Assembly (NCBI GenBank): GCA_015852425.1
Contig: JAAAIG010000010.1
Location: 1-64,000 of the forward strand
Length of the DNA: 64,000 nucleotides
Source: Gryganskiella cystojenkinii
Taxonomy: Eukaryota; Mortierellomycota; Mortierellomycetes; Mortierellales; Mortierellaceae
Direction of reading: 5' to 3'
In this document: in pieces, positions 1 to 11,800 of the stretch
How the letters are laid out: every line of letters starts with the position of its first letter
Position numbering within the stretch: position 1 is the stretch's first letter
The notes under the pieces: generated by a model
Database searches by the model: none
Told to the model about the DNA's origin: nothing
The model's input: only the letters and a program-made list of their open reading frames with translations
Program-made: the position numbers and the translations under genes

Positions 1-57
1 AGATCAATTAAAAAATAATAATTTAAATGTTTGAAGTTTTTTGAAAATGTTGAAAGA

Positions 58-188
58 AGCGTATTTGGCCAGGAATTTTTTGGTTGCGTATTTGCAAATA
101 CACCAGCCCGGGAGCTGGTGTATTTCAACGGACATTTCACGCCGGAAAATACGCAACTATCTGGGCTCAAAAAAAATTAAAATACGCT
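58..188. repeat. Nested inverted repeat (fold-back element)
   Basis: Three pairs of inverted arms nest around one centre. The outer pair is 58-66 with 180-188 (9 bp, AGCGTATTT and its complement). The middle pair is 83-93 with 147-157 (11 bp, GTTGCGTATTT). The inner pair is 96-107 with 114-125 (12 bp, AAATACACCAGC) around the loop CCGGGA. All arms are perfect as read and share a GTATTT core. The structure could extrude as a cruciform or mark a MITE-like or transposon-end sequence. It lies about 1.1 kb before the Fanzor-like gene. I found no matching copy downstream of that gene, so its link to the gene is only a suggestion. Confidence 0.7.
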
Positions 189-1263
189 GAAAAATGTCCA
201 TATCTGACACAATGACATCACTTTTTTCTCCACACGTATTGTCGCTAAAAGGAGCGTTTGATTTTATTCGGCGAATCAATAATAGAGACATTCTTGTGCC
301 TGTGTCCGTCCCAGGAGGCGACGAGGAGTTTTTTCTTTGTTTTGACTCTGTTCTCGTCTTCATTGTGTACCTAGACTTGCCCTACTGAAATATTGTTGTT
401 TGTGGTTTTTGCACAAGGGAGGGAGGGGCGAAGACATTTGGCCCATCGTTCCGTGAACTATCAACCAGGAAACAGGAACCCCTGTCTTCAACGGTGAATT
501 TTCTTTGAGTCGCTTCCCGTCTCATTTAATAAAAGCGCGGCCCCAACTGTGCCTCTTCGGCTTTTTTTGTCGCAGCCTTTTTCATTCCCCATATATACAT
601 CCTCATTCCCCTGTGAACCTCAGACAAATATTTATCTTCAGATTCGTTTTCACTCTCATTACACCATCCGAACCTGTCGACTTGATTGACTTTCGTGTTG
701 AAGATCAATTGTCGTCAACCCTCTTTGAAGCACAAAAATACATCTTGAAGATTTTCGACTTTTGTTCACTGCAGTCGTCTTTTGAAGAACTAAAGTTCCT
801 CTCTCGTCTCTACAGTGGCCATACGACTTGATCATTTCGGTCTCTCTGTCCCTCGAGCACATTTGGCTCTTGTTATTCATCTTGTGAGGTACACTCAACA
901 ACTCGTTCTTCTGCGCCATGGACGCAACCCATTGCAATGACGACTATTAACAAAAGTCACACCATACCTTTTCATATTTCCTTTCCGCATCGACAGCTCC
1001 TGCGACCCCTTCCCCCCTGTGTTACTTACCATCAATAACCACCGAAATCTGTCACTCGCGTATCGCCAATAACAAACAGTACTCATCCTCAGCGCAGCCC
1101 AGTCACAGAAAACCCGCATTTCTGGATATCACCCCTCGTCTCCCCGCCTTTTCTCATCAACAGCGTCAGTCCCCGTAAGTAAAGGTCTCTTACATATCTT
1201 TTTTGTCTCTTTTTGGAGCGATTTTCAAGTGGACTTAGACCCTTTCTTTATCTTGCTCCGCAG
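189..1263. other. Upstream region without a supported gene
   Basis: About 1.1 kb between the fold-back repeat and the start of the Fanzor-like gene. It is pyrimidine-rich on the plus strand, as expected for a fungal promoter and 5' leader. Short open frames on both strands have no recognisable domain and no splice-compatible continuation. No clear TATA box or other site can be argued. Confidence 0.5.
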
Positions 1264-4200
1264 ATGGGTACAAAAGATGTCGCGAGGCTGGCCAAGGAGG
1301 CTCCTCAGCACGTTGAGAATCTAAAGGACCCGAGATACATGAAGCACATCGATTTCATGTCCTTGGAGTACACGGCCGCGAACGCTATAGCTTATAATGC
1401 TCTTGTCAAAGAGATGAGCTCCATCAAAACGTCTCTGGCCGCTCCTTCGGTTTCTGTTGGAAACGTCGTTACAGGGCAGTCGATCGATAATACCAACCCT
1501 GCTGCACCTGCCCAGGATCAAACCTCTCATACACAGCAGCCAATGACACGACCCTTCGACATGAGCCTTCTTGACCAGCTCAACAATCTCATTGAGCAGG
1601 AGAATCCTCGCAGGATATATGTCGACGATGGAGAGTTGACCACATCGAAACCCAAAGCCCAAAGTGTAAGAAGGATTTATCAACTCGTTGCTACAGTAAA
1701 GCCTGATTTATGGAGAAGAGTTGCTGATTTGCTTTATCTGTTCATATGTGCTGGCAATTTAGATGTGTGAATCAGTTGGTTATACGATCAGTCGTCGCCT
1801 CGCCAAGGCTCGAGGCCTGGACCAGACAAGAACTATGATTCACATCGACGGTCTACTCTCCAAGCAAAAGCACTCTGAACATGTCAAGAGGTCAAGTGCA
1901 CAGGACAAAGAAGTGACTGCTATCGAGCGACTTCATTATTCGACAACGCGCACCGACAAGGATGTCCTCGACAAATGCAAAAAGGTCTACCGTCTCGACC
2001 GAGACCTCCTGAGAGGAGAAATAGCCGATGTTCTCGAACGCCTAGGATGGACGGTCTGTCTCTGCGAGTTCCAGGCTGATACCTGCATTGCTCAAAGAAA
2101 CCGGGACATTCCAGTCACCGAGCGTGCAAATTTTCGTGTCATTACGAACGACAGCGACTTTTTCGTGTACGAGGATATCGAGTCTGTCACCATCCCTGTG
2201 AAAGGCGTCCTTACAACCATTTTCAAGAAGGAATTCCTCGAGTATCTCGGTTTGCAGTCGGCTCGACAGTTACTTTGGGCGGCGATGTTTACCACAAACG
2301 ACTATTTCAAGGGTGGATATGGATATGGCTTCTTGACAAATATCAAGTTCGTCAAGGACAATTCCAGTCTCCCTTGGCCAACCCTATCAATGTTTGTTAC
2401 CCGAGATCCCTTCAGTCAAGAGCCCATCGAACTCCACGACGCTTTCGACCTGAACAGAAACAAGCAGGAACTTGTCGAGAACCAGGTCGACATGATGCGT
2501 CTTTTCGTCAAGCTATACCTTGACAATATCATTCCCAAAATCAAAGAATCAGAGAAGAAGCGTAATAAGGAACGCCGCGAATCGCATCGACAACTGGTTC
2601 ACTTGCACACACCCGAACCCGAGGATTTTGACCATGCCATCTCAGCATTTATCCGCATTGAGGAAACGGTGGACGACAACCCCCCCAAGCCACCAAGGAC
2701 CCATGAGCGGATCAAAACAATCCTCGAGGACACCCTGAAACGGCAAGTTGATCTCAATCTTCCAGCTGAAAAAAAGGTCGAGCCCCTCCCTTCGAACAGA
2801 GGCATTTACGACGCCTGGACGAACGTCTCCTTACTTCGACTTGAAACGCGCCGGTTGGAGCAGCAGGTTGTTGATCTCCAACATAACGTCTACAATATCA
2901 CTGGTGTCGCAAGACAGGAAGCTCGAGCCAATGCGGTCCAGCTAACGTTAAGTCGCCAAAAGCAGTTGGAGGACTTCATGAAGGCGAGCGTTGATTACGC
3001 TCGATTGTTTCCGCGTCACCCACGATTTGACTTTCCTAAATACTGTGGCGTGCCAGGTGATTTCTTTTCAAGGTCCACGGTCATCGGTGATCAGAGTCTC
3101 ATCGCCCATGCCGTCGTCGGTCGTGCTCCTGTCACCGGTGACCTAGATGGTCAAGAACCCTCTCAGGATGAGAAAGTCGCGTTCATTGTCCACGAAATCA
3201 AACACACTAAAGAGTTCATGCAGGGATCCCTGTCTCCGGCTATCAGACATCGTGCTCAAATGGATTTGCGTACCTTGCTCGACCTTGAGGAACAGATCAA
3301 GAAAAACCACAATGTTGTCACCATCGCCATCCTCAACTCAAAGTTGACTCCTCGTCGCACAGCCAGCGCGGATGGAGACTCGTCTTCTCCAGCGCAAGGG
3401 ACCGATCCATCACAGTTACCGGCTTCCTCAACAGCTGGAGATGGACAGGTTCCTCCTACTGGACATATTGATCCAGTCAGTCTCGAGACAGACTTGAAAC
3501 GAAATCGACGACGCCTAAAGGATCTACAAGACGGCGCCGGTTTACTTGTTCACGAGTTATGGCAACGTCGCGATAATGAGCTCCAATTATTGATTACAGA
3601 CCAGGCTCGAATTCGGAAAGAACTCGGTCAGTTCTTTCCCCGAGGCCCTCCTTTGCAGCTTGCTCCATGCCGAGCATCATCTCCCGAGACTGCCGAACTT
3701 GAGGCCAATATCAAGCCTCTATTGTACCTCGACGACCAACCTCTTTTTTCGACTGCTGACGTTCCCTCCGATGCATCACAGGGTCCATCCAGCACAACTA
3801 AAGGCAAGACACCCGTGCGTGTGCCCGTCGGCAAGCCTCGACAGGGGACACCAGCCACAGCCAAAAAGCAGGATCAACAATTAGCGGGCAACGCTGAAGC
3901 ATCAACCTCGGGTCGAATCACCAACAACGCCACGCCAAATCCTTATGAGACGAGGACTGATATCGGAAACCTCCGAAATATATACAACAACCTTTACCAA
4001 CTTGCAACAAACCTTTGTCATGAAGGCGACAAACTTGTCGCAGAAGAATGGCATCTCCGTCATTCAAAGTTTCGTTTCCTGGCATGGCGCCTGGACCAGG
4101 TACTACAAAGGATCCAACAGCTCAACCCAACCTTTTCTCCTCTCGATCCTTTGGACGACTTTCCTATTCGACAACCGCTGCAGAGATCAGTCTCGACTAC

Positions 4201-7200
4201 GAGCCAACGCGCCTTGAAATACAAACGAATTCACAAGCGAATTAAAGAGGGCATCACCCAAAGGAGAAAAATCGAAAAGGAAAAAAAGTGGAGAAGCTCC
4301 AGGTACGTTTTTGTTTTTCAAAACCAATTCGTGTTGTAGTTCCATTTCATAACAAAGCAGACTATGAAATCTAACCGAGTTTTGAAATCTATTTTTGATT
4401 ATATAGGTACAGACCCCGATTCGATATTCCGCGCTACGTCGCGCGGACTGTTGTGCCAACTAAGAATCCCAATATTCCTGCTGATGATCCTGCTCTAGTT
4501 GCTCCCCCTCCGGAGTCTAGTCCTGAAGATTCCAAGGAACTTGCGATCGAAGGGTCCGTAACAACAACGAGTACAAGCAAGCAAGGCACAGAGGCCGGGA
4601 GCTCGTCGACGGCAAAGGGGACAAAAAAGCGCGAACCAAAATCCAAGAGCACAACGACCACGAAAACAAAAAAAGAGCAAGAGAAAAAACCAAAGCGGAG
4701 CGTTGGGCTCGGACGTGTCTTCGGCCAGGTCGCCAAGCCCGGTTCAAAGCCTCGTGGAGAACCATTCCAGCATAAAAAAGTCATTCAACAATCATTCGCC
4801 CTCGTCACCCAGAATGCCGGTTGCGCAAGATCCTGTCTGTCTCGGGCATTACTCTCACGAGTAGACGAGGGCACGTTTGCCAAAGAAGATATTGACCTTA
4901 TTGCTCTTCGGATGGAGGATGCTTGTGCTATCTGCAACGAAGCTCGGATGCGTGTTTTCCACGCCTTTCAGATGCAGATCGTTGTCTCCTGCGAGGAGTA
5001 CCCATGGGCCCCAGGATCCGATTACGATGGTAACCCCACTTTTTTGCTTGCTCCAAACGAGCAGTTTCTGAGGACACTTCTTGACCATACAAAAGGCGCC
5101 ATGTTGTTGAGACATAGCTACCAATGGGCCTTGAACGACAAGCCCATGCTGGGGGTAGATCGATCCGCAGAAAACGATTTTATCCGCAACATGTCCTCGG
5201 ACATGTACCGGCGACTCAAGAGTTGTTATCCACCTGGCCTTCAAAAGTCCAACCACGGAAACTTGAAACTTGCCCTTGCCATTCAAGACCTGGCGGAAAA
5301 TGCATGGCTGACCATTGCCATGCATTTCAAACAGCTGGTGGTGACCCTCAAGGACAAGGTAAAGAAATGCCATGCAACAATGTTTGTGTGATGGATGCCA
5401 CATGATAATGTATCAAGAAGAAGAGCTAATTTTTCCTATATTTTTCCCGTATTAAAATAGATCAAGAAGCTTGGCATCACGGGCTTGCCTGAACTGATTG
5501 ATCCCTACGAGAAAAAGGAAACAACTGGCGGTAGGATGGCTACTGGAGAAGCCGGACATGGCGCCACAAGTAGGGAGGAACAACCTCAGGGTCAATACCA
5601 AAGAGACGAGGAAGAAGTACAAGAAATCGACGAAGAAGAAGAGCTCAGGAAGACAAAATTTGGACCCGACTATATCCAAATGCTGTGGACATACCACCAG
5701 GCAATCCCGGAGCATCATCGTCCCGCATTCTTCCCCATGGTCGGATTCAAGGACACCTTTATTCGCTTTGAAGAAAGAGCTCTGGTCGACATTCTCTGGG
5801 GTTATCACCAAAGAGACAGCAGCCACTGCGCACCAGTCGAGGTGTCTGTCCGGAAGCTGTTTGAAACAGTGATGGATGCTCATGCTGCAGCAAAACAAGA
5901 CCCTGGATTTGTTCTCTTTGAGCTATTTTACGGCGACAGGGAGCTCATCGCCAAATCGGAAACATTTCGACTGACCAACTATGGGAAATCAACGTGTACG
6001 ATGAGCCACTTTGGGGAATACAGAAGATCCACCGAGGCCATGACTACGTTCGTCAACGGGGCCAAAATGTTTTGGAAAGAGTTGAACACGTGTATCGAGA
6101 GTGGTGCATCAGTGACATCCTCGATGCCACGTTTCCGCCCCAATCTGGATCGATGGACGCGCTATATCCTTAGCAACTACGTCCTGTTCAATGGACTCGA
6201 GGTCCATTTTCTCGCCTATGACAGTCGACGCCCGGTCAGGCGAAATATCTTCGTGCGAGACCTCACCCATATCAGTCCAACAGAGTCCAAGCAGTTTGTC
6301 AATAACTTTACAGGTGTGGATCCTGGCGAGCGGGTGACGGCCTCCTTCTGTCTTCTTAGTCCCAACCCTGACCCTGAAGTGCCCAAACAGGGCTGTGACT
6401 CCATCCACAAAGTTCAAGGCAAGCTCAAAGAGTCAAAGCCGCTTGCAGTCAAAGGTCAGAGCGGACGCGGGTCTTCTTCGCTAGTGTCTGCGAATACCCC
6501 AGAGTCTGGGGCAACAGGGGACACATCGCAAATACCAGATAAGACCGTCATAAACCTGTCCATAACCCGAAAGGCTCTCTTCCAGCAATCTTTCAAGTAC
6601 CGGCAGGAACTCGAGGTCTTGAAGCAGTATCGAGGACCCCTCCAGGCTGGTAATGTCTCGTTCAGCTTGTGGGTTCCAAAAGACTTTGAGTGGCGAAAGC
6701 ACCTCTTGCCTCTAGGGAACGATGGTGATGAGCAGGGGACCTTGACAGAATCGCCAGGTGTCCAAGAGCTCGAGTCCATGTTGTTGCCAAACTCGTATCA
6801 ATCCCGGACTGACATATACGCTATAGTCCAAACGCGTCAACATCTGTACCCTTCTCTGCATACCTTCTATGCGTCTATGAAGCTGAAGAAAATGGCCTGG
6901 GAGCTTAAAAAGGCCTTAAAGTCTGAAAGGGACAAGGCCGCATCTGCTGTACTTAAAAAATGTCCGCAGCCAACACTCTTTACATACGGCAAAGCCAAGT
7001 TTCGCAGCAAATTCAATCTGTCCTCGCCGCACGATACTTTTCGCATGGATTTTGCATCCAAGGTAACTATTGCTCGGACTACAGTATTTGTCTTAGGGAC
7101 TTGCTTCAGCAATACTAACCACGATTTTAAAATACAGGCCACATCGTTAGGTCATACAGTGGTACTGGTGAATGAGTACATGACTTCGAAAATGTGCCCT

Positions 7201-7401
7201 GTTTGCGTCTCTGCAGAGAACCAGAATCGATTGGTCCAACAAAAGTATAGGACTTTTGTCTGTCCATCGTGCCGTGTGCCAATAGACCGGGACCATGGCG
7301 GATCCCACAACATGGCTCTCCTTGGTTGGTACTGGGTCCATCATCGACGGAGACCGAAACCATTAGACTGGACCCCCGAACCAAACCCTTCCATTCCTTG
7401 A
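1264..7401 (+). CDS. FEN1/XPG-like nuclease fused to a Fanzor/TnpB-like RuvC nuclease
   Basis: Exons are 1264-1665, 1763-4302, 4407-5358, 5461-7062 and 7138-7401; they join in frame to 1,919 aa without a stop. The start MGTKDVARLA resembles the MGIxGL start of FEN1/XPG nucleases. FEN-like landmarks follow: HID at D30, YVDDG (D121, D122), FQADTC (Q238, D240), TNDSDF (D264, D266) and TNDY (D314) before a GYGYGF turn. Residues from about 420 to 1150 are helical or coiled-coil and low-complexity, then comes a Lys-rich stretch. The C-terminus has the Fanzor/TnpB order: GVDPGERV (RuvC-I, D1585), TYGKAKF (1806-1812), VNEYMTSK (E1845), zinc ribbon C1852/C1855/C1874/C1877, then DRD (D1884) and N1890. 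Known Fanzors are RNA-guided DNA endonucleases of eukaryotic transposons. That this protein is RNA-guided, or that both nuclease sites work, is inference. Removing the last intron (75 nt, in frame, no stop) restores a family-like spacing. No neighbour suggests a partner. Confidence 0.8.
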
Positions 7402-8832
7402 GTATCGTCCTTTGGAAGTGAGAAAGGGAGAAAAGAGAAGGAACAGGAGAAGAAGGAAAAAGAAAAACAAAAAGGCAAATCAAAAAAATAAAAAAATGTT
7501 CTTATTAAGACAGCGGTCTTGAGGTATGTGGGCAAAATCGGAAAAGAAAAGACATGGCATTAACAGCAAAGCTGTCACTAATTGGCTTGAGTGCCTTCTG
7601 GCGCTCGGTATGGTTCAAAAATAAATACAGCTCACAGGGCATTATATAGATCCTCAAAGAAACGTACATCTTGGATACTCGAGCATTACTGCCACCATCT
7701 TCATCATCATTTCGCTATGCCTTGCTCATCACGAAGAAGCAGGTGAACATTTTGCCTTCAGAAGTTCTCAACCAAAACTTCGAAATTTGTGCTAATGGAT
7801 TGTTCCAAAGAACATAAATCGCCATGGTTCTCATCATTTAGTCCAGGAACGACTGGTATTCCTTCGGTATATAGTCTTTGTTTTGGATTTGTCATCGCCC
7901 TTGCTGCAAAAGAAGGATGCAAATATGAAGATACACATGCCATGGAGACTGTTCTCACACCATCATCTGTCCTTTTTTTCCCGTCGTTGACAACACGGCT
8001 GCAGTCGCAGCAGAGTGTTGATGCTGTCCAAGGTGGCCAACTACCGGCCTCCGCCATTAACAATCATCCTTCCCCGGGCACTGACGAGAGGGATGCGCGA
8101 GTGGGATATAAAAGTACGATTTCAGACTCAGATCAAAAAATAATAATCTTGGGTGAAAACGCAGGTTTCAAAAAAAATTCGGCGAAAACGAAGGAAGGGA
8201 TAAGTTCCGAGCCCGCCACCATCAAATGTACTATCGCTCGTTTCAAACGGTTGCACTTTTCTTCATTTTCTAGCTCTTTCTTCAGAGTAGTTTTGGTTAT
8301 TTCGTGTGAAGTGGGATGATTGACTTAAGGGGCCAAGCGATTTCAAAAAAAGCTCTGGTTCCTGGGACACCAGGGACCATGACTGGCTTTCTCTTTTTTT
8401 TTTTTTTGTAGTCCTGAAATCGCAAGTTGGTTAATGAAGAAAAGTACAAGTAATGCGACAAGTAGCTCGTTGTATTTTCACGAGGGCAGAAGTGCCAGGG
8501 CTAACACCAGAAGCGCTCGTCGACTGCGTTTCTACACAGGGGATTTGTGCAGGGATCGAGAGGCCAAAATTGGAACAAATTAAGGGTGCGAAATCGCACG
8601 AGCCTGTTTCCGTTTCTGTTCCTCACTGACTGAACTGACACACAATTTCGCTGTATTCAATGTTCATTTCTTTTCATCTCTTTTTTTTCTTTTTTCTTTT
8701 CCTTCAATCACAACCTACCGCAGTACTCTTACCCTTCCCGCTGTTACTATTATCCCTCTTTTTTTGTTTTACCAAAACACACTCCTTCCTCCCCGCAACA
8801 ACGCTTCCGACCAAGACTACTAGACTGCCGCC
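7402..8832. other. Intergenic region; possible 3' non-coding part of the Fanzor-like gene, then XRN1 promoter
   Basis: The first 350 bases after the stop are purine-rich and contain a small hairpin (AAGAC, loop AGCG, GTCTT near 7507-7520). In TnpB and Fanzor elements the guide RNA usually comes from the 3' end of the nuclease gene and its flank, so this is where one would look; nothing here proves it. An open frame at 7789-8319 has no recognisable domain and looks like chance. A 14-bp palindrome, GTGCGA-AA-TCGCAC, lies at 8586-8599, about 235 bases before the XRN1 start, followed by CT-rich promoter-like sequence. Confidence 0.4.
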
Positions 8833-11800
8833 ATGGGAGTACCAAAGTTCTTTCGCTGGATGGGGTAATTTGATAGAATGACGACACAACACACGCGTCT
8901 TCCCCTCATTTCGATTCTCTTTTCATGCAACCGCGCGTTGCCCTTGAAGGACGGAACATGCTATTATGCCCTTCCTGCCATGACCCTAACTGCTGCTGCC
9001 CATTGCTTTTTGCTCCGAAATAAAAAAAATAATGATATAGAGAGAGATATCCCCTGTGTTCGCAGTTGATCACTGAGAATGCCATCCCCGAGTTTGGTAA
9101 TGATTCAATGGAAACCTGGAAGAAAACAAACAGGCACCTCCTATTTCTTTTGTTTTTGTGATCCTCTGTGGAGAAGACACAACGAGAAAGGCATGGATCA
9201 GATTCTGTTTGTGCACAAGAGTGTGGTTTTCTAACTTTTTTTTTACACTTATTTTTTTTTTTTTTTCAATGTGGGGGAAAATTATTAGACAACCTCTATC
9301 TGGATATGAACGGCATTATTCACAACTGCTCACTACCGAACGATACCGATGCACATTTCCGTCTCTCGGAAGACAAGATCTTTCTTGCCATCTTCAACTA
9401 CATTGATCATTTGTTCCTGAAGATCAGGCCGCAAAAGGTTTTCTTCATGGCCGTCGATGGTAAAGAAGTCTGTGCTCTAGAAAAAAAAACTCTAAGATTG
9501 CTGACGAAATTTGAAGGCGCAGCCCAGCTCCTTTTCACTCTGCGGCAAGTTTTGGACTGACTCACTCATTCTCTCAAACGCTCTGTCGGCTTCCTATCCC
9601 TCTAGGTGTTGCCCCTCGTGCCAAGATGAACCAACAACGCTCTCGTCGTTTCCGCACGGCCAAGGATGCCGAGGACGCAAAGAGAAAGGCCATCGCTAAA
9701 GGCGAAGAATTGCCAGAAGAGGAGCAATTTGATCGAAACTGTATCACCCCAGGTAACGACAAAAGAAGTTGCACTCGGCCTCATCTTTTCGCAAGATCAC
9801 AAGTCGTAACCGCTCGCTGTGTTTTAGGGTCATTGGACATTGAACATCATGTAACACATACATCTACTTTTTACCTTCTTCGAAATAACTAGGAACTCCA
9901 TTTATGAAGCGTCTGTCTGCACAATTGGAATACTTTATCTCCAAGAAGGTGACTGAGGACGCAAACTGGCACGGGGTCAAGGTCGTCCTCTCAGGACACG
10001 AGGTGCCCGGTGAAGGAGAGCATAAGATCATGGAATACATTCGTCTCTCAAAAGCACAGGACGATTACAACCCCAACACCCGGCATTGTCTCTACGGCCT
10101 TGATGCCGATCTGATCATGCTCGGTCTCCTCAGTCACGAACCTCACTTTGCACTCTTGCGCGAGGAAGTCACGTTTGGAAAATCCAACAAGAAGAAGGGG
10201 TAAGAGCAAGAATGCCTCTCTCATGGAAATCGACGGATATTCATGTGTTATTATTCAGGTACTAACAAATGAGTTCATATTTTTATGGTTTAATAGAAGC
10301 ATCGACACACAAAACTTTTTCCTGATGCACCTTTCACTCTTGAGAGAATACCTGGACCTGGAATTCAACACGTTGCAGGAGACGTTACCCTTTCCCTATG
10401 ATCTCGAACGAGTCATTGACGATTTCGTGCTAATGTGTCTGTTTATCGGAAACGATTTCTTGCCTCATTTGCCCAACTTGCATATTGCCGAAGGCGCACT
10501 GAGCTTATTGTTCAAGATTTACAAAAACCTTTTGCCAAAACTTGGAGGTTATTTCCAGGACTCAGGTGTTTTGGACCCCAACCGTGTCGAGGCCATGTTC
10601 CATGAGCTAGCTGAAGTAGTCGAGCATGAGGCCTTTGAGGCCGAATGTGATGATCTCAAGTACATTGGCGGTAAGATGGCCGAGTTGATCATCGTCCCTA
10701 GCTCTGGTGGTCACAACAAGAACGGTCGTCCACGCCAAGGAATGCGTATGGGTAAACCCATCGAGAACTCTAGCGAGCAAGGTAAGCGAGTCATAGGCTA
10801 CAGAAAGAGCTCTGGATTTGATATACATTAACGCAAATTTTCATCATAGCACTAATTCTTTTTCGTATTGTCGACCATCAATTGTTTCTAGTTATGACCA
10901 GGCGGCAAAAAGATTTGTATGACCAGATCAAGGAATTTGTCTTGGAGCGAAGAGATGTCCTCCACTTCCCCCCAACACTCAACTCTGCAGACAGGAACTT
11001 TGTTAAGAGGATTGTCTCTGCCATTGAAGTCCGTCATGGAACCGAGACCTCGCCCGAAGGCGTGAAGAACCTCTATATTGAGTTTGATGAGGAGGAGGAC
11101 GAGGAGGATGTCGAGTCCCAAGAAGCCCGTGCCCGTGTTCTGCGTAAATTTGATCAAGCAGAGGTGGTCGAGGATGTCATTGAGAATGAGAAGCTTCGCA
11201 ACGAAAAGGCCAAGAACGTTTACGAAGATAGATTGCAGCACTGGAAGGCTACCTACTACGCGGTAAGAGAGTTGGCCAGATAGATGTCATTGCATCTAGG
11301 ACGGGCCGCGCGATATTCGAACGTATTTCTAATAATGTTATCTCTTTTCCCCTTGTATGTCTCCTTTACCGTACATAGGAGAAGCTCGAGCTAACCACCC
11401 CCAACGAGATTCGCACGATGGTCTTTAAATACGTCGAGGGTTTGCAGTGGGTCCTTTATTATTATTACCGAGGAGTTGCCTCTTGGGGTTGGTTCTACCC
11501 ATACCATTATGCCCCCAAGATTTCGGGTAAAGTAGTTGTCGCAAACGAATAATTGTGTGCCCTTTCTGTGTGTGTGTGTGTGTGTTCTCCTTGTGGCTAA
11601 CGACAGGACTGACCTGTCGCTGTGAATCACAACAAATAGACTTGGAAAACTTAGCCGAATTCAAGATCCCTTTCGAACTGGGAACGCCATTCAAGCCTTA
11701 CGAGCAGTTGATGGGAGTATTGCCCGAGGCTAGTAAACAGCACATTCCCCGCGCATACTGGGTAAGAAAGATGAGCCTTTTGTGAAGTTGTCCTGGTATG

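Follow-up and report, generated by a model that had tools for sequence, protein, structure and literature searches.

Does a single gene of the soil mould Gryganskiella cystojenkinii (Mortierellaceae) join a flap-type nuclease, of the kind that serves DNA repair, to a Fanzor, a eukaryotic relation of the CRISPR nucleases? This question is raised by a gene at positions 1264-7401 (+) of the 64,000-nucleotide stretch analyzed here (hereafter, the window), which is contig C2 of the 35-Mb, 1,050-contig genome that we searched. A sequence-only reading of the locus had proposed that one 1,919-residue protein carries a FEN1/XPG-like nuclease at its N-terminus and a Fanzor-like RuvC nuclease at its C-terminus. 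We found that the predicted product is, with high confidence, a genuine FEN-Fanzor fusion, and profile searches including structures of the Protein Data Bank (PDB) placed both halves in the families named. The protein is not a single case: it is, as judged by similarity searches, a member of a multi-copy, mostly broken FEN-Fanzor family in this genome.

Two nuclease domains in one predicted protein

The region 1264-7401 (+) encodes 1,919 amino acids plus a stop codon in five exons that join in phase, with GT...AG borders at all four introns, in agreement with the earlier reading. The C-terminal half is, by its motifs and profile matches, a Fanzor, with RuvC and TNB within aa ~1100-1919. A Pfam profile search with PF07282 (TNB) matched aa 1823-1890 (E 8.8e-12; 45.5 bits against a cut-off of 26.3). 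The RuvC region lies in exon 4 (5461..7062, +; aa 1299-1832), which contains GVDPG with D1585 at 6319-6321, and the TNB zinc finger (C1852/C1855/C1874/C1877) lies in exon 5 (7138..7401, +; aa 1833-1919) together with E1845 and the RuvC-III residue D1884. The RuvC triad (D1585, E1845 and D1884) is complete. A Fanzor/TnpB signature, D-X(125,275)-[TS][TS]-X-X-C4-X(5,50)-RD, is given in a passage of Bao and Jurka (PMC3627910), and the window protein agrees with it at every residue as D1585-X262-TS-XX-C4-X5-RD, with TS at 1848-1849 and RD at 1883-1884. The series GVDPG, NEYMTSK (E1845), CPVC/CPSC and DRD (D1884) is present just as it had been described. A profile of 17 Fanzor pieces from the G. cystojenkinii genome, the window included, matched the PDB entries of TnpB-like L79 (8.1e-7), TnpB 9nzp (1.4e-4) and Guillardia Fanzor1 (0.0024), and the NCBIfam model guided_TnpB was matched at 1.7e-6 with 27.6 bits, under its cut-off of 100. 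Exon 3 (4407..5358, +; to aa 1298), bounded by intron 2 (4303..4406, +) and intron 3 (5359..5460, +), is, by its position, where the WED/REC domains of the Fanzor would be sought.

The N-terminal part (aa ~1-460) is, by the profile matches of its family, a 5' nuclease domain of the FEN/XPG superfamily. Exon 1 (1264..1665, +; aa 1-134) carries the FEN-like N-terminus MGTKDVARLA, D30 and a low-complexity insertion; after intron 1 (1666..1762, +), the nuclease core (1823..2395, +; aa 155-345; D163, K170, R177, Q238, D240, D264, D266 and D314) opens exon 2 (1763..4302, +; aa 135-980 plus two bases). An alignment of pieces from the window and from contigs C37, C335 and C204 retrieved 33 proteins at E ≤1, of which 27 scored ≤1e-12; their sources are metagenomes and ten named taxa, including Mortierella claussenii, Entomortierella chlamydospora and G. 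cystojenkinii. A model built from 14 of these 33 relatives, without the window, found aa 217-333 at 37.0 bits, as compared with 7.8 bits for the best of 2000 shuffled sequences. Reverse searches of the genome with the relatives P0004, P0022 and P0002 recovered the window at 1.9e-4, 8.1e-6 and 0.03, respectively. When a 24-row profile (22 of the 33 relatives, the window and the C37 piece) was compared with the PDB, it matched FEN-1 1a76 (8.5e-10) and human FEN1 (~1e-7), as well as RAD2, XPG and EXO1; at E 0.01, XPG_I was matched by 17 and Pox_G5 by 10 of the 24 rows. The Pox_G5 matches suggested that the FEN domain might have come from a virus, an idea that we set aside; the only check, a scan of viral contigs for FEN relatives, found none.

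The active site was placed with a family alignment of 15 of the 33 relatives together with the window, C37 and C335. In the register of this family the catalytic motif is IHIDG (aa 160-164). YVDDG (aa 119-123), which the sequence-only reading had counted among the FEN landmarks, is not the FEN VFDG motif; its other landmarks, HID (D30), NDSDF, TNDY and QAD (the leading position of which is Q238), are present. D30 aligns with the aspartate of VDVLS in the relatives, and D264/D266 (NDSDF) and D314 (TTNDY) hold in the alignment. K170 and R177 follow D163 by 7 and 14 residues in both the window and C37, the spacing of D86/K93/R100 in human FEN1, where K93 and R100 belong to the helical arch. Human FEN1 has seven active-site acidic residues (D34, D86, E158, E160, D179, D181 and D233), and six of these positions, rather than all seven, are kept by the alignment (D30, D163, D240, D264, D266 and D314).

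The evidence that both domains belong to one protein comes from a diverged second copy at C37:4573-11082, which is colinear with aa 1-1917 of the window protein (tblastn blocks at aa 128-981, 981-1304, 1356-1500, 1500-1848 and 1833-1917). At the site of each of the four window introns, C37 shows a gap or a change of frame. Identity between the copies is 54% in the FEN core and 43% just after it, 37% over aa 461-720 and 29% over aa 721-980 in the linker (2741..4302, +), and, in the C-terminal half, 37% in exon 3, 49% before RuvC, 41% in RuvC and 72% in TNB. Codon position 2 changed least and position 3 most in seven of eight segments, the linker included; the exception is RuvC, with 0.39/0.40/0.64 for positions 1/2/3. 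Since the linker is conserved in C37 with the codon pattern of coding sequence, it has evolved as protein under selection, which argues for a single long protein and not for an accidental read-through of two frames. The earlier statement that the fusion is no artefact of a broken frame is borne out in this way. Furthermore, the FEN core and the linker up to aa 980 form one open frame of 858 codons, the equivalent in C37 being 941 codons. D163, K170, R177, D240, D264, D266, D314, D1585, the four zinc ligands and D1884 are identical in C37, and the NEY glutamate is retained in its last exon as NEF. When two regions of the complete product were used as protein queries, the gene itself was the sole match.

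The NCBI record for this gene, BGZ83_000057 (P0001; Gryganskiella cystojenkinii; 1,858 aa), equals our product over the first 1,832 residues and thereafter takes a different last intron and another frame, so that it joins FEN and RuvC with the TNB zinc finger spliced out. Intron 4 of our model (7063..7137, +; 75 nt) is in frame and stop-free, and TNB would therefore be read whether this intron is removed or retained. The TNB frame begins at the position of intron 4 in several other Fanzors of the same genome; at C37 and C340, TNB and RuvC are encoded by exons in different frames, so that an intron is required at those loci. Because the record carries no precomputed Pfam domain, annotation-based surveys would probably overlook the gene, and a choice of last intron that loses TNB may hide Fanzor homologues from automatic annotation.

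A FEN-Fanzor family in one genome

At E 0.001, PF07282 matched the genome 19 times. Most of these TNB loci group by mutual similarity as window-type, C201-type or C625-type, with C972 and C259 outside clear grouping, and a separate search added the window-type loci C646, C521 and C989. FEN-like sequence, most of it broken, was detected on 24 contigs by searches with P0004 and P0002 (E ≤0.01). The flanks were examined for 20 of the 24 contigs (C242, C826, C903 and C951 were left out), usually over ≤1.5 kb downstream. A Fanzor follows FEN on the same strand in C2, C37, C405, C560, C1019, C124 and C56, and scrambled pieces follow it in C518, giving 8 of 20. All three of the Fanzor lineages distinguished include a Fanzor with FEN ahead of it on the same strand. 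C560 joins a C335-type FEN to a C625-type Fanzor in a broken copy, and in C405 a FEN N-terminus that lacks the XPG_I portion is followed by GIDPG and TNB. The C335 sequence itself (L010:490-2064) is an open FEN-like frame of 524 codons, ~0.7 kb from the contig end. Several contigs terminate within or beside FEN or Fanzor genes. That the pairing recurs in further copies, most of them broken, is a hint that the two nucleases may form a natural RNA-guided machine.

Apart from these paired loci, a C625-type Fanzor at C441:147256-148556 lies at least 5.7 kb from the contig end, and three FEN searches gave no match on that contig. It is a possible natural FEN-less comparison.

Among known systems, the TnpB proteins of IS200/IS605 and IS607, as well as Cas12f, share the TNB zinc finger and RuvC-III with the window protein; they are prokaryotic, measure about 400 aa, and are not known to carry a FEN domain. 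Members of the FEN1/XPG/EXO1/GEN1 superfamily, and also poxvirus G5, share the D163-K170-R177 spacing, the DSD and NDY motifs and the profile matches, whereas the window protein differs from them in its fusion to a Fanzor, in having Q238 for E158, and in an insertion of ~80 residues near the N-terminus. P0004-type proteins of Mortierellaceae are of the same FEN family as the window protein, but are mostly short or partial records. Known Fanzors (Fz1/Fz2; SpuFz1 of Spizellomyces punctatus and GtFz1) have the same RuvC and TNB signature; by comparison with PMC10432273, the window gene further has in common with them a conserved element of ~75-84 nt at the right end, with variable sequence after it, and repeats without the gene that are similar to ghost loci. 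In contrast to them, the window protein is long (1,919 aa) and has the FEN-like domain and a stretch of ~640 aa before the Fanzor; its guide RNA is putative, and searches for inverted repeats found none. The statement of the sequence-only reading that no described Fanzor carries a flap nuclease stands uncontradicted by titles and abstract starts: among the open-licence literature listed, none of these reported a fusion of FEN with Fanzor or TnpB, and passages of PMC3627910, PMC10432273, PMC10711439 and PMC11423790 contained no such fusion.

Right-end element and candidate omega-RNA

Comparison of the flanks revealed a short conserved piece downstream of the window gene, C37, C646 and C340. In the window it spans 8121..8202 (+), ends in GGGATA, and is the candidate right end of the element and candidate omega-RNA scaffold. 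The first unique bases past this conserved end, 8203..8218 (+), would form the putative guide by analogy with SpuFz1, for which a passage of Saito et al. (PMC10432273) describes a scaffold of 75 nt that precedes a variable guide of 14-15 nt. An 84-nt window piece gave 13 genome matches including itself, and addition of the C340 copy made an alignment of 14 rows. GGGATA is followed by divergent sequence in 11 of the 14 rows, the exceptions being C629, C196 and C1003. RNAalifold was run with C629, C196 and C340 omitted, and covariance models were built from three copies (R1) and from eight of the 14 copies (R2). R2 found the element downstream on the coding strand in C37 (1.6e-21), C646 (5.3e-9) and C340 (1.6e-5), none of which was in the model; the match in C989 was marginal (0.055), and at C521 R2 found no element. 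Its other matches, from 55 sources at E ≤1, were known copies only. Thus, the right-end element lies downstream of four of six window-type TNB loci, with the fifth marginal. A search of Rfam gave no match near the gathering score of any family.

The element forms the end of a 3' repeat region (7533..8202, +) that has 36 additional matches, spread over 30 other contigs, and parts in common with C37. Among these 30 contigs, only C37 is also a TNB contig, and C646 has Fanzor pieces. The gene-less matches are possibly ghost or non-autonomous copies; ghost loci without a gene, of ~550 nt, are described in a passage of Saito et al. (PMC10432273). It is quite probable that the gene belongs to a mobile element.

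A different element of ~110 nt was observed downstream of the Fanzor genes of C201 and C434, and also at C216 (L036:908-1015 (-), L030:2625-2733 (+) and L099:38-150 (+)), and represents a second candidate omega-RNA family in the C201 lineage. The three sequences fold better than the window element (z -2.94, -1.49 and -3.97), and 5 of 42 consensus pairs show two-sided (compensatory) changes. A model of this element matched C814 at 1.6e-4, whereas its match to C533 (0.15) was no better than a wrong-strand match (0.18). A core of ~42 nt occurs in ten further places besides C201, C434, C216 and C533.

Proposed function and alternatives

Three features speak for an RNA-guided cut, namely the Fanzor half, the RuvC site within it and the element at the right end, and we consider it likely that the protein is RNA-guided. 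Fanzors, as far as they are known, make the DNA cut itself, the ends being left to the host; 5' flaps and 5' ends are the substrates of the FEN family. In the mechanism that we propose, the Fanzor half would bind an omega-RNA produced by transcription of the right end. The unique sequence that follows GGGATA would serve as guide, and the RuvC site would cut DNA matching that guide. The tethered FEN domain would then act on the broken ends, most likely by removing 5' flaps or resecting the 5' strand in the manner of FEN1/EXO1, and such end processing would favor homologous copying of the element into the cut site. As a whole, a FEN-Fanzor fusion with an RNA-guided cut and FEN end processing is the explanation toward which we lean; taken separately, the chances that the FEN domain is catalytically active seem about even, and its action on the guided cut, an idea that the sequence-only reading had raised as speculation, is a tentative proposal. 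Equally tentative is the wider idea of a lineage of eukaryotic RNA-guided nucleases that would combine a guided RuvC cut and a FEN/EXO1-type 5' nuclease in one polypeptide and bias repair toward copying of the element. This lineage might extend over several Fanzor lineages of the fungus, perhaps of its family, and might have gone unnoticed partly through annotation that splices out the zinc finger. If a built-in flap or resection nuclease were confirmed, these proteins would reveal a way in which mobile elements direct the repair that follows guided cutting. They would also be a model from nature for the design of editors favoring homology-directed repair. The repeated pairing across lineages also makes the role of Fanzors for their elements testable, by comparison of FEN-bearing and FEN-less forms within one genome.

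Several observations weigh against this interpretation. When the N-terminus of the window protein was searched alone, Pfam returned nothing and the PDB nothing meaningful, so that the link to FEN passes through its relatives, and in the 24-row set the window row matched neither XPG_I nor Pox_G5 at E 0.01. The position of the FEN1 glutamate E158 is occupied by Q238, whereas P0004-type relatives have a glutamate there, and the FEN domain may therefore be weak or dead. C37 shows two extra frame changes, one in exon 1 past ~aa 60 and the other around aa 1500; there are candidate introns that might account for both, but the copy may be broken, which makes it weaker as an intact copy and leaves the coding conservation unaffected. 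Among the paired loci, C405, C560, C1019 and C56 are broken or degenerate, and C405 has lost the RuvC-II glutamate (E to K) and the arginine of RD (R to C). The pairing is not universal: no FEN was found in the 2.9 kb upstream of the C434 Fanzor, C126 has a Fanzor scrap on the strand opposite its FEN, and 11 other FEN contigs had no Fanzor in the flank examined, that of C204 being only 7 bases. The window element folds no better than shuffled sequences (z -0.48; C37 piece, z +1.00) and is without the hairpin found in other copies. At the left, no inverted repeat was found in window 1-9000, where at best 14 of 22 bases agreed with the inverted right end and the contig starts at base 1.

Four alternatives were considered. 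The FEN domain might serve the movement or upkeep of the element, by trimming transposition or replication intermediates at its ends or by maturing omega-RNA, rather than act on a guided cut, the fusion only keeping both activities together. FEN-like copies without a visible Fanzor in the genome would suit this explanation, as would the capture of Fanzor1 proteins by DNA transposons of several superfamilies that is reported in a passage of PMC3627910; the order FEN before Fanzor in all three lineages fits a tight functional link, without saying which, and we regard upkeep as somewhat unlikely. Less likely still is a catalytically dead FEN part that binds nucleic acid structures, either flaps or omega-RNA. 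Q238 is common to the window and C37, and C335 and P0002 are of the type without the glutamate (GQFD), while P0004-type rows keep it; on the other hand, conservation between copies extends to the other acidic residues and to the lysine and arginine of the arch, in a domain that is 54% identical, above the level of the linker.

A domesticated host gene that has lost its mobility, with ordinary repeats nearby, might explain why the 5' flank is almost unique. The 3' repeat is 79-90% alike between C2 and C37, as compared with 68-73% for the coding exons (blastn stretches ≥90 bp), and could thus be a later insertion. We assign little weight to domestication, since relatives exist in many, partly broken copies and the right-end element recurs behind the genes of C37, C646 and C340. 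The least probable alternative by far is that two adjacent genes were merged by the gene model: FEN-only and Fanzor-only loci do exist, yet the FEN core and the linker share one long frame in both copies and the linker evolves as coding sequence.

Two minor observations concern the flanks. A direct repeat of 27 bp, 93% identical, stands on both sides of the C37 gene (L056:131-157 and 7625-7651). In the window, the next gene appears to begin at 8833 onward, ~630 bp past the right end of the element, with a starting motif that resembles the 5'-3' exoribonuclease XRN2/RAT1.

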